The position numbers and the translations under genes are program-made. Below the pieces are notes generated by a model. That model saw nothing but the letters and a program-made list of their open reading frames with translations, made no database searches and was not told the DNA's origin. A DNA stretch of 64,000 nt from an uncultured Bacteroidia bacterium. Lineage in GTDB: Bacteria; Bacteroidota; Bacteroidia; Bacteroidales; F082. The stretch spans positions 62,001 to 126,000 of the forward strand of contig CADADR010000003.1 in the NCBI GenBank assembly GCA_902786745.1, written 5' to 3'. Numbering within the stretch: position 1 is the stretch's first letter; each line of letters starts with the position of its first letter. Of the stretch, positions 1-44,618 are shown one piece after another.

Positions 1-2940
1 GCCCATAAGATTGCTGTTCAGCACGATATCACGACCTAAGCTGTAACCGTAGTGGTAGATGCCCTGGGCGTCATAAAGGTCAGCGCAAAGCACGCCTTGA
101 CGTTCCACCGACTGGCCATCAACAAACTCGGGCGAATTCCAATAGAAATGAATCTTAGGCCCTTCGTCATCAGCCACGGCCGAGGGATCGACGCCACCCA
201 GCGACAAGTTATCGTACTTGCCCATAGCATCGACATTGTTGATGGAATCATAGGCATAGAAGGTGAATCTCGGCACTCCGCCTTCTTGGTCTATATCCTT
301 AGGCACCTGGAAGGAGAGGCTGAACCTACCGTTGTTCACGCTGACCTTCCCTCGGTAGAGCACATCCTTATGGTAATACACATATCTCGGAGAGGCACCA
401 TTGAACTTCACCTTGACCTTAGCCTTCTTGTCGAAGAATCGGGCCCATAAGGTGCCATTGAAACCGTTATCAACCGTTCCGTCAATCCTTTTGACGACAC
501 CTTCCACAGTAACCATGCTCATGGCATGCAATTGAAGGTCATCGCTGCTTCCAATGGCCGCACCGTTGATTGTTCTCACTTCCACTTCCTCATGAGGCAA
601 GGGGAAACGCAACACCGGGTCGCCCATGAACACAAAACGGATGTTTAAATTAACCATTGGATTGCTGGAGTAGTTATCAGGATTGTTCTTTGTCATCCTG
701 ACGATGTCACCAAAACGCAGCGACAGCCCATCTTCATCCCTTTGGGTGAGCACTTTCACCAATGCCTTTGAGTGCAGGATGTTATGGTTTCCAAAGGTGG
801 GACGGCAGGCCGTGAACAAGGCCACGCAGCCTCCATTCGGATTCAACATCATCAACTCGCCCGAAGAGACCAACAGAGGATTGTCGTATTTGGTGAACTC
901 GCAAGTGGCGGTATAAACGAAAGGCATCTTGTCGTAATTGTTGAGCGCTGCGATGTCGGCATTGGTAAACACATTATCGCCCGTCAGGCCTCTCACACCG
1001 CCATGACCCGTGTAAAGCATGGCCAATGCTCCTTTGTCAAAGGCATCCATCAAATCGCGATTGGCGCCAGGAATCTCAACGCCATTTGAGGTATTGACCA
1101 CGGGATAGGCGCCACAATACACTTTCTTGGCCGTCAGCAACGGGCAGATCGTATCCAGCATCCTGTATAAAGTCTCCGTATTCTCCACATAACTCAGCGT
1201 TTCGTCATCAGCGCAAAAGATGATGTCGTTCTTCCATTCGCCATGTGAAGCTATCAGGTCGTTGAAATGGCGGATCTTACGCAACACCGTCTCAGCCTCC
1301 TCAACCGTAGAGACCGAGATACGGCCCACACCGATATCCACCTTACCTTCGCAGTTGGAGCCTTCGTTATTGTCCATCAAAGCATAATAATCGTCGGCGC
1401 AAAAACTCAATTCATGGTGCGGATCAGCAAAAGTTTCATAGCAAGGCACAAAGTTCTGGCCATATCCCATGATATTACGGAAATCGGCAGATGCACGCCC
1501 AAAGAGGGTCAGGTATTTGAGTCGGCCCGAACTGCGGCGATACACCATACGCACAAAATCGCGAATGCCGGTAGGATCGGGCGTGCCAGTCGAAAACTCG
1601 TTGTAAATCTCGTTGACGTTGACCACTACGCTGGTCAAGCCGTCCAACTCGGTATGGTAGTCAGCCAGCTCTTGTGCCTGCTCCAAAAAGATGGGCGAAG
1701 TCAAGATCAGGTTATCGGCCAAGGCAATGCCATGAAGATTCTGGTTGGGAACAGCCTTCCAGCTAATGACATCCATAGCAGCCGACGGCTTGAACATCAC
1801 ATAGCGTTTTTCCGTCTTTTCATTGGTGGCGAAGACCATATTACCACCGCTCAACACACCTGTCTGCATGACGGGGCTCATCGGGTCGGTCACCTCCCAA
1901 AGCCTATAGTCGGCATTGGTGTTCTGCACCCAAACGGCAGTCTTGTCGTTTCCAAACTGACTTGGCATCAAACGGAAAGGAAAGACGCTGCCCACACATT
2001 TCAAATGACGCCATCCATAGATCTCCACATAGTCAAGATACAAAGAGGCTTTGGGATTGGGCACGAAACTCATCTCAAATAGAGCCGTGTCACCATCCAA
2101 TACGATCTGTTTCTCAAAAACAGAAGGATTGGCGTATTTATGCGTTTTGTAATAGTCAATGGTCTTGTTCTCCACAACATGATTGTCGTCGACCCAGATA
2201 TTGTATGACATGGTACCAGAAGAGACACGGCCATAAACAGTGCCTACCACTCGCAGGTTTTTCTCCTTTACCAGATTGGGAAACACAAAGGGTATCGACA
2301 GCGTTTCATCACCTGAAATCACCTCGCCGAACCAATTCTGTCCAATGAAAAAAGGCGAGAAGAGTTCCTCCTCGTGCCAAGCCCAATCAGGGAACTCGGA
2401 AATGACCGTCGTGGCGTCCTCAACGGGAAGGCTAGACTTCTCTCCCACCCTCAATCCATCAACGCCACTGTCGACGCAGAGATAATAATAGGTAGTGTCA
2501 GAATAGTAATTGCGTTCTCTCTGATAGGTTTTGCCGTTTTGGTCAACCAGCTTCCACCGCGTCGGCTCTTGGCCATAGAAAAGCACCTTGTCGCCTTCAT
2601 CGAACGAGCCGTCTTCGGCGCCTTCCACCACGATGGCCATCTCCGTCAAATCGTCGGGACGGATTTCAGAGTTTTTCTCAGGCAACTTCCCCGAAGGATT
2701 ACCGAAGACGCGTATCTGGTCGGGATTCAATTGATCCATATTAATGCCCATGGCCTGCAACGTGCCATAATCCAGTCGGTAAACACCTTCTTGCGTCACC
2801 GAAAGTCTATGCCATGTGTGCTCACTCAGGACTGAATGATAGTTGTTCACTTGAGCGACAGTCGACCTCGTCGGAAGCAACAAAACCGCCGCAGCAAAAA
2901 GGACAATGGAAAATATTCTTTTCATCATACTTTGTTTCAT
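1..2940 (-). CDS. C25-family (gingipain-like) cysteine peptidase, PorU paralogue, C-terminus cut by window edge
   Basis: The reading frame is open from ATG at 2940 to base 1, giving 980 codons with no stop, so the C-terminus lies outside the window. The N-terminus (MKQSMMKRIFSIVLFAAAV...) is a Sec signal peptide. The C25 catalytic pair is visible: His646 in YTGHGG and Cys680 in TATCEF. They are 34 residues apart, exactly as in the adjacent PorU (787/821). Unlike PorU it lacks the long pro-region: the WHRLSVTQEGVYRLDY segment that precedes the peptidase part starts almost at once (about residue 43). Its ATG overlaps the TGA of porU in an ATGA, so the two are translationally coupled. Because the C-terminus is missing, I cannot tell whether it carries a T9SS sorting domain. 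It could be a second sortase-like protein or an ordinary secreted protease. Confidence 0.88.
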   Translation of the reverse strand, partial: MKQSMMKRIFSIVLFAAAVLLLPTRSTVAQVNNYHSVLSEHTWHRLSVTQEGVYRLDYGTLQAMGINMDQLNPDQIRVFGNPSGKLPEKNSEIRPDDLTEMAIVVEGAEDGSFDEGDKVLFYGQEPTRWKLVDQNGKTYQRERNYYSDTTYYYLCVDSGVDGLRVGEKSSLPVEDATTVISEFPDWAWHEEELFSPFFIGQNWFGEVISGDETLSIPFVFPNLVKEKNLRVVGTVYGRVSSGTMSYNIWVDDNHVVENKTIDYYKTHKYANPSVFEKQIVLDGDTALFEMSFVPNPKASLYLDYVEIYGWRHLKCVGSVFPFRLMPSQFGNDKTAVWVQNTNADYRLWEVTDPMSPVMQTGVLSGGNMVFATNEKTEKRYVMFKPSAAMDVISWKAVPNQNLHGIALADNLILTSPIFLEQAQELADYHTELDGLTSVVVNVNEIYNEFSTGTPDPTGIRDFVRMVYRRSSGRLKYLTLFGRASADFRNIMGYGQNFVPCYETFADPHHELSFCADDYYALMDNNEGSNCEGKVDIGVGRISVSTVEEAETVLRKIRHFNDLIASHGEWKNDIIFCADDETLSYVENTETLYRMLDTICPLLTAKKVYCGAYPVVNTSNGVEIPGANRDLMDAFDKGALAMLYTGHGGVRGLTGDNVFTNADIAALNNYDKMPFVYTATCEFTKYDNPLLVSSGELMMLNPNGGCVALFTACRPTFGNHNILHSKALVKVLTQRDEDGLSLRFGDIVRMTKNNPDNYSSNPMVNLNIRFVFMGDPVLRFPLPHEEVEVRTINGAAIGSSDDLQLHAMSMVTVEGVVKRIDGTVDNGFNGTLWARFFDKKAKVKVKFNGASPRYVYYHKDVLYRGKVSVNNGRFSLSFQVPKDIDQEGGVPRFTFYAYDSINNVDAMGKYDNLSLGGVDPSAVADDEGPKIHFYWNSPEFVDGQSVERQGVLCADLYDAQGIYHYGYSLGRDIVLNSNLMG

Positions 2941-40649: not shown

Positions 40650-40850
40650 ATGAAATTACTTACCATCGGCACAACCGAAATCATCCTCATCGTGATTCTT
40701 GTATTATTGCTGTTTGGCGGACGCAAGATTCCGGAACTGATGAAGGGCTTGGGCAAAGGCGTAAAGAGCTTCAAGGACGGCGTGAACGGCGTTGAAGAAC
40801 CCGAGATCAAGGAAGAAAAGAAAACCGAAGAAAAGAAAGCCGAAGAATGA
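40650..40850 (+). CDS. tatA: Sec-independent (Tat) translocase subunit TatA
   Basis: TatA oligomers form the passage for folded proteins carrying a twin-arginine signal. The 66-residue protein has an N-terminal membrane span (EIILIVILVLLLFGGRKIPE) with the FGxxKIPE hinge, an amphipathic helix (LMKGLGKGVKSFKDG) and a highly charged Glu/Lys tail. No tatB is present, so this is a minimal TatAC system. The tatC ATG overlaps its TGA by 4 bases. Confidence 0.94.
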   Translation: MKLLTIGTTEIILIVILVLLLFGGRKIPELMKGLGKGVKSFKDGVNGVEEPEIKEEKKTEEKKAEE

Positions 40851-41641
40851 GCGAGCGGGAGGTCAGCAGTTTCTGGGACCACTTGGATGTGCTTCGGAAA
40901 GTGCTGTTCCGCTGCTTGATTGCCTGGGCAATCGGGGCCGTGGCGGCATTTTGTTTCAAGGACATTTTGTTTCGCCTGCTGTTCGCCCCATCAACGGACG
41001 GTTTCGTCTCCTATCGTGGTTTGGCTTGGCTTTGCGCCAAAACAGGATGGCAATCGCTTTGTCCAGGCAGCTTTCAGGCTTCGTTCATCAACACGGAACT
41101 GGCGGCACAGTTTATGACGCATCTCAAAGTGGCGCTCTGGGCGGGACTCGTGGTGGTTTCGCCTTACCTCATCGTGCAGCTTTACGGCTTCGTCGCGCCT
41201 GCCTTATACGACAAGGAGAAACGCCATGCCGCTCCTATTATTATATGGGGCTCATTGCTTTTCATCCTCGGCGTGCTGATGAACTACTTCATTATCTTCC
41301 CTTTCGCTTTCCGCTTCCTCTTCAACTACCAAGTCTATTCGGAGGTGTATAACCAGATTTCGCTTTCGTCCTACATCTCCAACCTGCTCATGCTTAGCCT
41401 GCTGATGGGCATTCTCTTTGAAATCCCTATTGTCAACTACCTCCTGGCCAAGGCTGGTCTTTTGCAAGCCGAGACCTTGAAGAAATACCGCCGTCACGCC
41501 ATCGTAGGCATCGCCATCGTGGCCGCCGTCATCACCCCTACCGGTGACGCAGTGACACTGACGCTGGTAACCTTGCCCATTTATCTTCTATATGAAGCAA
41601 GTATACTAATTGTAAAAAAGACAAACTCAAAATCAATCTAA
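40847..41641 (+). CDS. tatC: Sec-independent (Tat) translocase subunit TatC
   Basis: TatC is the receptor for twin-arginine signal peptides. The 264-residue protein has six membrane segments and family landmarks: FWDHLDVLRKVLFRCL at the N-terminus, LYGFVAPALYDKEKRH in the first cytoplasmic region, LLMGILFEIPIVNYLL, YRRHAIVGIAIVAAVITPTG and the LPIYLLYE end. It starts within the tatA stop and is followed 1 base later by an iron-sulfur gene, so a substrate or partner is encoded in the same transcript. Confidence 0.95.
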   Translation: MSEREVSSFWDHLDVLRKVLFRCLIAWAIGAVAAFCFKDILFRLLFAPSTDGFVSYRGLAWLCAKTGWQSLCPGSFQASFINTELAAQFMTHLKVALWAGLVVVSPYLIVQLYGFVAPALYDKEKRHAAPIIIWGSLLFILGVLMNYFIIFPFAFRFLFNYQVYSEVYNQISLSSYISNLLMLSLLMGILFEIPIVNYLLAKAGLLQAETLKKYRRHAIVGIAIVAAVITPTGDAVTLTLVTLPIYLLYEASILIVKKTNSKSI

Positions 41642-41642
41642 T

Positions 41643-43115
41643 ATGTTACGTAAAATCAGAATCTGCCTACAAGTGGTCATGATGACCTTAGTGACCTTGC
41701 TGCTACTCGGCATCGGTTTCCGAGTGCATCTTTGGGCGGGATGGGTGGCCAAAATCCAATTTTTGCCAGCCTTCCTTGCCTTCAACGCAGTTGTGGTGAC
41801 TGCCATTATCTTAGTCACCATATTTTTCGGAAGAATTTATTGTAGTGTGGTTTGCCCCTTGGGCATCATGCAAGACATTTTTTCGTGGATTGGCGGCAAA
41901 GCGAAGAAAAACCGTTTCAGCTATGCCAAGGAAATCAAATGGCTGCGCTATGGCTTCTTTGCCGTTTTCGCCATCATGCTCATCATCGGCTTCGCGCCTC
42001 TCACTACCCTATTTGCACCTTATAGTGCCTACGGCCGCATCGTCAATAGCTTGTTCAAGCCGCTGTATGACCTGCTCAACAACTGGCTCGCCGGCCTCGA
42101 TGCTGCCAACGACCGTTACAACTTCACAGAGGTGCAAATCTGGACCCGCAGCGTGACGACCTTCATAGTGGCCATCCTTACTTTAGTAATATTAGGCTTC
42201 CTCGCCTGGCGCAAAGGGCGTCTCTATTGCAACACGATTTGTCCTGTGGGTACCTTCCTCAGCTTCTTCTCACGTTTCTCCCTGCTACGTGTCCGCTTCG
42301 ACAAAGACAAGTGCAAGAATTGCGGCATGTGCGAAAAGAACTGCAAGGCACAAGCCATCGACTTCAAAGAAGGGAAAATTGATTATTCGCGCTGCGTGGT
42401 TTGCGGTGACTGCTTAGAAAAGTGCAAATTCGACGCGCTGAAATACGGCAGGGACTTGTCTGCTTTTAAAACCGAATCGAAACCCGTTGACACGGAACGT
42501 CGCGCCTTCCTCGTAGGTGCAGCGGTGGCTGGCACTACAGCGGCAATGGCACAAACCGAGATGAAAGTGGATGGCGGCTTGGCCGTCATTGAGGACAAGA
42601 AGGCTCCTAAACGTCAAACACCCATAACACCTCCAGGTTCTGTCTCCATTCGTCATCTGGAAAAGCATTGCACGGCTTGCCAACTCTGCGTTTCAAGCTG
42701 CCCGAACAATGTGTTGCGTCCGTCCACTGACCTGTTACATTTCATGCAACCCACGATGTCGTTTGAGCGCGGCTATTGCCGTCCCGAATGCACCCGCTGC
42801 AGCGAGGTCTGCCCTGCTGGTGCCATCAAGCCCATTTCCCGTGAGGAGAAGACAAATATCCATGTGGGGCATGCCGTATGGGTCAAGGACAATTGCGTGG
42901 TGCTCACCGACGGTGTCAGCTGCGGCAATTGCGCACGTCACTGCCCGACAGGAGCCATCCAAATGGTAGACTACGAAGGCCCGAACGGCACAGTGCAAGT
43001 GCCTGCCGTGGACGAGAACAAATGCATAGGCTGTGGTGCCTGCGAGCACCTCTGCCCTGCCCGACCGTTCAGCGCGATATACGTAGAAGGGAATGAGATG
43101 CATCATTTGAATTGA
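41643..43115 (+). CDS. NapH-like membrane ferredoxin fused to a NapG-like Fe-S domain with an internal twin-arginine motif
   Basis: A 490-residue electron-transfer protein. The N-terminal half (1-270) is NapH-like: four membrane spans, the CxxxCP signatures CSVVCPLG and CNTICPVG, and two [4Fe-4S] motifs (CKNCGMCEKNC, CVVCGDCLEKC). At residues 285-303 comes ERRAFLVGAAVAGTTAAMA, which reads like a Tat signal in the middle of the chain. The C-terminal half is NapG-like with four more motifs (CTACQLCVSSCP, CTRCSEVCP, CGNCARHCP, CIGCGACEHLCP). It likely passes electrons from quinol to an exported acceptor. It is the third gene after tatA-tatC and precedes a Tat-exported oxidoreductase. No napA or other Nap genes are nearby, so nitrate reduction is not implied. 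Confidence 0.85.
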   Translation: MLRKIRICLQVVMMTLVTLLLLGIGFRVHLWAGWVAKIQFLPAFLAFNAVVVTAIILVTIFFGRIYCSVVCPLGIMQDIFSWIGGKAKKNRFSYAKEIKWLRYGFFAVFAIMLIIGFAPLTTLFAPYSAYGRIVNSLFKPLYDLLNNWLAGLDAANDRYNFTEVQIWTRSVTTFIVAILTLVILGFLAWRKGRLYCNTICPVGTFLSFFSRFSLLRVRFDKDKCKNCGMCEKNCKAQAIDFKEGKIDYSRCVVCGDCLEKCKFDALKYGRDLSAFKTESKPVDTERRAFLVGAAVAGTTAAMAQTEMKVDGGLAVIEDKKAPKRQTPITPPGSVSIRHLEKHCTACQLCVSSCPNNVLRPSTDLLHFMQPTMSFERGYCRPECTRCSEVCPAGAIKPISREEKTNIHVGHAVWVKDNCVVLTDGVSCGNCARHCPTGAIQMVDYEGPNGTVQVPAVDENKCIGCGACEHLCPARPFSAIYVEGNEMHHLN

Positions 43116-43215
43116 TAATTGATAATTGATAGTTGACAATTGACAATTGATTATTATTTCAGGTTGTCATCACAATCTATCAACTCTAAACTCTAAACAC
43201 TAAACTCTAAACTAA
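43116..43215. repeat. Short A/T-rich tandem repeats between the Fe-S gene and the aldo/keto reductase gene
   Basis: About 40 bases directly after the stop consist of TTGATAA/TTGACAA units (around 43112-43156). After a 25-base spacer there is a second array of CTCTAAA/CACTAAA heptamers (about 43184-43214) that runs up to the next ATG. Neither codes for protein. The second array looks like telomere-type simple repeats. Confidence 0.7.
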
Positions 43216-43220
43216 ACAAA

Positions 43221-44618
43221 ATGGATAGAAGAGATTTCTTAAAACATATAGGTAGTGCAGCGGTAGCGACTTCGGTGGTGCTTTCCGCCTGCAAAAACAA
43301 CAATGGTGAAACGCCCATCGCCAAGGATGTCATCGACGGACAAGGCGAGATGACCTACCGCACCAACCCCAATACCGGCGACAAGGTGTCGCTTTTGGGC
43401 TACGGCATGATGCGCCTGCCCATCGAAAACGGGGCTGACATGCGAAAAGACCCCAACGCCCGTGTCGACCAGGAAATGGTCAACGAGGAGGTGGACTATG
43501 CATTGGCGCATGGCGTCAATTACTTCGACACCGCCCCGGTTTACACAAGAGGCTATTCAGAGACTGCCACGGGCATCGCACTATCGCGCCACCCACGCAA
43601 CTCATATTACATTGCCACCAAGCTTTCTAACTTCAGTCCATCGACATGGGACACGGAAAGCTCCAAGGCCATGTTTGAGAACTCACTCGAAAAGCTACAG
43701 ACCGATTACGTCGATTATCTGCTTATGCACAGCATCGGTGGCTCAGGCAAAGACATGACCAGCATGGAGATGTTCAATGCCCGCTTTATGGACAACGGCA
43801 TCCTCGACTGGCTCGTCGAACAGAAAAAGGTCGGACGCATCCGCAACCTCGGCTTTTCGTTCCACGGCGACCCGAAACTGTTCGACACCATGATGCAATG
43901 GCATGATGAAGGTAAATACCATTGGGATTTCGTGCAAATACAATTGAACTATGTGGACTGGAGCTTCGGCGAGATAGAAGGCGAAGGCGTCAACTCGTCA
44001 TACCTTTACGAGGAGCTGCACCGTCGTGGCATCCCAGTAGTGATTATGGAACCATTGCTTGGTGGAGGCCTTGCCAAACAACCCGACCACATCGTGAAGC
44101 AGATGAAAGAACGCGAGCCTGAGACACCCGTCGCCCGCTGGGCCTTCCGCTTTGCCGGCACGCCCGAAGGCATCCTCACCGTGCTGAGCGGCATGACTTA
44201 CATGGAGCATCTGCAACAAAACGTGGAGACCTATTCACCACTGCGACCCATCACCCCCGACGAGGACGAATTCCTCATGAGCGTTGCCGAGCAGTTCATC
44301 AAGCTGAAGACCGTGCCTTGCACCGCCTGCAACTACTGCATGCCCTGCCCCTACGGATTGAACATTCCTGCTGTGTTTGCCTACTACAACGAGAGCATCA
44401 CTCAAGGCAAGATGCCTACCGGCAATCGAGAAGCGAAAGCGTTTTGGGAAGCGAGGAAACGTTTCCTCATCGGCTACGACCGCAACATCCCAGCCATGCG
44501 TCAGGCAAGTCACTGTATCGGCTGCAACCAATGCACCGAGCACTGCCCACAAGAAATCGACATCCCCACGGAATTGCACCGCATCGATGAATATGTGGAG
44601 CAACTCAAACAAATGTAA
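43221..44618 (+). CDS. Tat-exported aldo/keto reductase lipoprotein with C-terminal [4Fe-4S] motifs
   Basis: A 465-residue oxidoreductase. The N-terminus MDRRDFLKHIGSAAVATSVV is a twin-arginine signal and ends in the lipobox LSAC (Cys24), so the mature enzyme is probably a lipoprotein outside the inner membrane. The aldo/keto reductase barrel keeps Asp and Tyr of the tetrad (YFDTAPVYTRGY), Lys (YIATKLS) and His (YLLMHSI). The C-terminus has two ferredoxin-like motifs, CTACNYCMPCPYG and CIGCNQCTEHCPQ. Export of a folded, cofactor-bearing enzyme fits Tat. Placed behind tatAC and a membrane Fe-S protein, it may take electrons from that protein instead of NADPH. The substrate is unknown. Confidence 0.88.
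   Translation: MDRRDFLKHIGSAAVATSVVLSACKNNNGETPIAKDVIDGQGEMTYRTNPNTGDKVSLLGYGMMRLPIENGADMRKDPNARVDQEMVNEEVDYALAHGVNYFDTAPVYTRGYSETATGIALSRHPRNSYYIATKLSNFSPSTWDTESSKAMFENSLEKLQTDYVDYLLMHSIGGSGKDMTSMEMFNARFMDNGILDWLVEQKKVGRIRNLGFSFHGDPKLFDTMMQWHDEGKYHWDFVQIQLNYVDWSFGEIEGEGVNSSYLYEELHRRGIPVVIMEPLLGGGLAKQPDHIVKQMKEREPETPVARWAFRFAGTPEGILTVLSGMTYMEHLQQNVETYSPLRPITPDEDEFLMSVAEQFIKLKTVPCTACNYCMPCPYGLNIPAVFAYYNESITQGKMPTGNREAKAFWEARKRFLIGYDRNIPAMRQASHCIGCNQCTEHCPQEIDIPTELHRIDEYVEQLKQM

Follow-up and report, generated by a model that had tools for sequence, protein, structure and literature searches.

The question raised by this locus is how a single protein chain with iron-sulfur motifs in both its membrane half and its C-terminal half is arranged across the membrane, and which translocase handles the latter. 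In the window (the whole 64,000-nucleotide stretch of Bacteroidales DNA analysed here by purely computational means), four genes lie on the + strand: tatA (40650..40850, 66 aa; Pfam TatA_B_E, 1.2e-13, and TIGR01411 above its cut-off), tatC (40847..41641, 264 aa; Pfam TatC, 5.6e-66, and TIGR00945 above its cut-off), a polytopic polyferredoxin of 490 aa, hereafter PFD (41643..43115), and an aldo/keto reductase of 465 aa, hereafter AKR (43221..44618; Pfam Aldo_ket_red, 1.3e-33, and Fer4). tatA and tatC overlap by 4 bases, the ATG of PFD is separated from the tatC stop by 1 base, and AKR begins 105 bases past PFD. AKR carries a predicted Tat lipoprotein signal, MDRRDFLKHIGSAAVATSVVLSAC, and two C-terminal four-Cys [4Fe-4S] motifs. 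The interval at 43116-43215, between PFD and AKR, contains short tandem repeats of TTGATAA-like and CTCTAAA-like units and several promoter-like matches.

Profile searches describe PFD as a NapH-like membrane half and a NapG-like four-cluster half joined in one chain. The NapH model TIGR02163 scores 86.6, below its cut-off of 213 (1.9e-24), with Fer4_5 also matched, and residues 279-473 score 74.4 with the NapG-type model NF007012, below its cut-off of 269 (7.6e-21). The two halves thus resemble the NapG and NapH quinol dehydrogenase components, but those are separate polypeptides and PFD falls far below their cut-offs; no nap genes were found beside PFD in the window. The NapH-like C-terminal part is also matched weakly at a second place in this genome (L002, C10:9418-9729), where a stop interrupts the matched region.

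The four-span membrane ferredoxin named in a preliminary description of this DNA is borne out by four strongly hydrophobic segments, TM1-4 (residues 5-190, 41655..42212), with predicted insertion energies of -2.2 (5-28), -2.8 (43-67), -3.4 (100-124) and -2.9 kcal/mol (166-190); the values come from a re-implementation of the formula and are to be read relative to each other. Two CX3CP motifs lie at what are predicted to be the cytoplasmic ends of helices, one at the end of TM2 (residues 67-72, C67/C71) and one just past TM4 (residues 196-201, C196/C200), and two ferredoxin motifs (C224..234, C251..261) follow in a dicluster ferredoxin region predicted to be cytoplasmic (residues 217-267, 42291..42443; Fer4_6, Fer4_7 and Fer4_9 matches). 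The NapG-like domain (residues 340-475, 42660..43067), predicted to be periplasmic, holds the four [4Fe-4S] motifs that the preliminary description had counted (C343..353, C379..390, C418/427..434, C461..471); all four are present, and the ferredoxin and CX3CP motifs of the N-terminal half had been left out of that count. In 85 aligned Bacteroidota homologues 28 cysteines are invariant at every aligned position, which by their motifs is sufficient for seven predicted [4Fe-4S] clusters, three in the first half and four in the second.

Between the halves lies the stretch on which the question turns. Residues 285-303 (42495..42551), with R286-R287 located in ERRAFLVGAAVAGTTAAMAQ, do have the Tat-like form previously ascribed to them: the motif reads R286-R287-A-F-L (RRxFL), it is conserved, and the segment passes the Tat signal model TIGR01409, marginally, with 16.8 against a cut-off of 16.7 bits. 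Across the whole 2.8 Mb genome only this segment and the AKR signal (19.2 bits) pass. These two matches are a lower bound, as the model missed the RR signals of CXXX-repeat peptides in relatives, and on that account PFD and AKR cannot be claimed as the sole Tat cargoes of the genome. The hydrophobic part of the segment, 286-303, has an unfavourable insertion energy of +1.8 kcal/mol, as expected of a weak fifth helix, and is followed by basic residues (K308, K319, K320, K323, R324), of which K308 is kept in at least 90% and K319 and R324 in all of the near-clade PFDs.

The idea that a protein of this architecture is targeted by two translocases is not new. In a genome survey, Tooke et al. 2017 found a "polytopic polyferredoxin", a NapH-NapG fusion, and demonstrated, by means of MBP and AmiA fusions and RR to KK swaps, that TM5 of the protein from the delta-proteobacterium MLMS-1 (Q1NSB0) depends on Tat; low hydrophobicity of the last transmembrane segment and positive charges after it lead to release by Sec and pick-up by Tat (PMC5449189). 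By its published architecture as given there, Q1NSB0 shares with the window protein five transmembrane segments with RR immediately before TM5, seven [4Fe-4S] clusters (three cytoplasmic, four extracytoplasmic), a positive TM5 insertion energy and basic residues after TM5. The passages of that report consulted here do not name Bacteroidota for this family, and the type found in the window differs from Q1NSB0 in standing beside tatAC (in one lineage), in its Tat-lipoprotein AKR neighbour, and in the linked changes of motif and TatC that we describe below for sister species. The actinobacterial three-TM Rieske proteins (QcrA/Sco2149) are similar in principle, with Sec inserting the first segments and Tat the last segment together with a folded Fe-S domain, but their domains are unrelated, their cluster is 2Fe-2S, and only two segments precede the signal.

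These features also bear on the idea that Sec/YidC alone inserts all five segments and that clusters are added in the periplasm. Neighbouring helices could pull TM5 into the membrane, and insertion of some marginal helices is noted in the MLMS-1 study (PMC5449189), yet a positive insertion energy followed by basic residues is the combination that fits the rule for release from Sec set out in that work. The changes in TatC described below also speak against insertion by Sec alone. Fe-S assembly is not known to occur in the periplasm, and we regard this route as barely credible.

A second alternative has the C-terminal domain remaining cytoplasmic, with residues 286-303 forming an amphipathic or re-entrant linker in which the two arginines are incidental. 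The unfavourable insertion energy of this segment is compatible with such an arrangement, as is a structural prediction that is uninformative (AlphaFold from 23 homologues; mean pLDDT 40, pTM 0.21, too poor for structural use). It accords poorly with conservation of the motif, with passage of the TIGR01409 cut-off and with the Tat export demonstrated for the MLMS-1 relative (PMC5449189). Among the 85 aligned homologues, arginine stands at position 286 in 77 (K in 5, L in 1) and at position 287 in 81 (K in 2), and phenylalanine at position 289 in 74, in contrast to the linker immediately ahead of RR, which differs in both length and sequence from one homologue to another; the retention of RRxFL next to so variable a stretch indicates conservation beyond chance. 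RR is not absolute, as KR, RK and one L-R-K variant exist. The preliminary description had held that homologues without both arginines would speak against export by Tat, and none was found among the 85 aligned. The poorest motif of all, A-L-R-K-T-L, occurs at L071 (genome G049), where AKR has RR and there are two TatC proteins, both bearing E103.

The distribution of PFD points the same way. It is present in 90 of 198 Bacteroidales genomes and in 22 of the 198 genomes of a phylum-wide draw. tatC, present in 166 of the 198 Bacteroidales genomes, accompanies PFD in 89 of 90 cases and is found in 77 of the 108 genomes without PFD, counts that are uncorrected for relatedness; the one PFD genome in which tatC was not found, G088, is 93% complete. 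The near absence of PFD without tatC speaks against a domain that stays in the cytoplasm. Gene position is weaker evidence. The preliminary description took the location directly behind tatA-tatC as support and asked whether the fusion occurs elsewhere and always beside these genes: it is widespread, and tatAC adjoins it in the window and in most close relatives of the window genome, but the linkage is lineage-specific. Among the 35 genomes with both PFD and AKR, tatC lies within 6 kb of PFD in at least seven and elsewhere in the others, and we rejected the notion that PFD invariably stands beside tatAC. The constant neighbour pair is PFD and AKR, with tatAC linkage optional: AKR orthologues occur in 35 genomes, PFD is present in all 35, and the two lie within 200 bases of each other in 33, the exceptions being G014 (on another contig) and G133 (2.7 kb apart).

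Sister species of the window genome offer a natural experiment on whether TatC reads the internal motif of PFD. Fifteen genomes of its genus carry RK in both the PFD internal motif (S/T-R-K-x-F) and the AKR signal (S/T-R-K-D/E-F; PFD-AKR loci L067, L070, L124-L128, L150-L155, L159, L160), and 29 genomes of the genus, counted where both are readable, have RR in both. A model built on the RK motif gives strong scores to PFD and AKR in each searched RK genome that has both genes, and whatever ranks next is weaker by several orders of magnitude. A motif scan covered 1.6 Mb of the RK genome G176, roughly two thirds of its length. In this portion, S-R-K-x-F followed by a Tat-like, weakly hydrophobic stretch occurs in PFD and AKR only, and no convincing RR signal appeared when the list was judged by eye. 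Rescue of RK signals by higher hydrophobicity (cf. Huang and Palmer 2017) is unsupported for PFD (GRAVY 1.73 in both groups) and slight for AKR (1.25 vs 1.05).

TatC residues are numbered here after an E. coli reference that we presume to be correct, E15, F94 and E103 having aligned as expected. The window TatC retains F94, Y100 and E103, the last two within PALYDKEKR. In the E. coli TatBC-substrate structure (Nat Microbiol 2026), the first arginine of the signal contacts E15/F94, and the second forms a salt bridge with E103 and packs on Y100; E103A serves there as an inactive control (PMC13323110), and E103 is reported to be nearly invariant across all three domains (PMC5539426). The cognate TatC of the RK genomes has lost the two residues that face the second arginine, in 14 of the 14 examined (Y100 replaced by S/G, E103 by M/T/I/A; loci L168, L169, L200-L207, L209, L211, L213, L214), and keeps H12, F94, L99 and an acid at position 15. 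Compared with the published receptor site (PMC13323110), Y100 and E103 have thus gone together with the second arginine of the cargoes.

E103 is present in all 48 other Bacteroidales TatC sequences of our tree, and the 16 that lack it group together in a single clade (support 99/97 with columns 96-106 excluded). Two further members extend the picture: in G242, AKR lies at a contig end and matches the RK model, and in G224, where PFD was not found, a Gfo/Idh-type, sugar-dehydrogenase-like dehydrogenase starts MDRKEFL (L247, 1495-2769). tatA adjoins the RK-type tatC at the one locus read closely. As the loss of E103 is confined to one clade, the receptor contributes a single event to the co-change, and with one independent pair a sign test is powerless. 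KR variants of the PFD motif occur without loss of E103 or F94 in TatC in the three KR genomes checked. A mixed case was also observed (G016; L082 and L226), with DRKDF in AKR, NRRRF in PFD, and a TatC that has Y100K and keeps E103.

Three of the RK genomes (G214, G237 and G222) encode a second TatC, which has both Y100 and E103; its gene shares a cassette with the genes for an SRREFF-bearing CXXX-repeat peptide and the radical SAM maturase of this peptide. Such sets of tatC near an RR-signal CXXX-repeat peptide and its maturase (TIGR04115/04116/04119/04117) were located at L284 (5960-10444), L285 (8178-12428), L287 (6975-10802) and L283 (1576-5508). The presence of this TatC beside an RR peptide means that RR and RK are each paired with the matching type of receptor within one genome. 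Based on these observations, we consider it somewhat probable that a subclade of this genus has rewritten its Tat code, with a TatC that lacks the Y100/E103 pocket and cargoes that have gone from RR to RK, and that, given the canonical TatC and RR peptides in three genomes, two Tat codes may coexist per cell. We found no description of the tatAC-PFD-AKR operon, or of the linked change of RR to RK and TatC, in the literature searched.

That the PFD motif, the signal of AKR and the pocket of TatC have changed jointly supports, at the level of sequence, the view that TatC reads the internal motif of PFD. The motif has changed alongside the AKR signal and TatC residues 100 and 103, which speaks against an incidental pair of arginines in a cytoplasmic linker, and together with the evidence above this makes retention of the domain in the cytoplasm very improbable. 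The earlier proposal that Sec inserts the N-terminal half and Tat moves the folded Fe-S domain finds support here from sequence criteria and from the co-change in TatC. We put at roughly 85% the probability that the window protein is a dual Sec/Tat-targeted polytopic polyferredoxin, with a NapH-type quinol-oxidising membrane half and a NapG-type periplasmic half, a handover from Sec to Tat, and probable electron transfer to AKR.

On this dual-targeting model, Sec would insert TM1-4 with the N-terminus inside, an orientation suggested by the order of the helices and by the basic character of the cytoplasmic loops; three clusters would then face the cytoplasm. The weakly hydrophobic fifth segment, followed by Lys/Arg, would be released by Sec, and the C-terminal domain would gain its four [4Fe-4S] clusters and fold in the cytoplasm before export. 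TatC would then read R286-R287-x-F, and TatAC would translocate the domain into the periplasm, leaving it anchored by the fifth segment. PFD would probably take electrons from menaquinol, or from a donor in the cytoplasm, and hand them to the neighbouring lipid-anchored AKR; their direction is suggested by analogy with NapGH and their delivery by gene order and by the clusters of AKR itself.

The partnership of PFD with AKR is the part of the model that we derive from gene order. A Tat lipoprotein signal is predicted at the N-terminus of nearly all AKR orthologues, and the enzyme retains the Asp, Tyr and Lys motifs of its family's catalytic tetrad, from which it could be supposed to hold a nicotinamide cofactor exported along with it. 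PFD might instead serve another periplasmic acceptor, AKR being merely a co-regulated Tat cargo. The more distant PFDs (36-45% identity), which mostly lack AKR, lend this some weight; in the near clade the adjacency of the two genes in nearly every genome, and the fact that no AKR orthologue occurs in a genome without PFD, argue against it, and we judge it possible and on the unlikely side. We retain AKR as the probable acceptor.

Membrane proteins handled by two translocases form a small class, which these observations extend to Bacteroidales of the rumen and gut; in these bacteria PFD is common. The co-change may be taken as evolutionary evidence that an internal signal, here within a polytopic protein, uses the TatC site at which ordinary N-terminal signals dock. 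A lineage that lacks E103 and Y100, and whose cargoes have changed their second arginine, puts the receptor model to the test in nature, and the Tat system of the RK clade offers an export pathway that could perhaps be turned into an orthogonal one.
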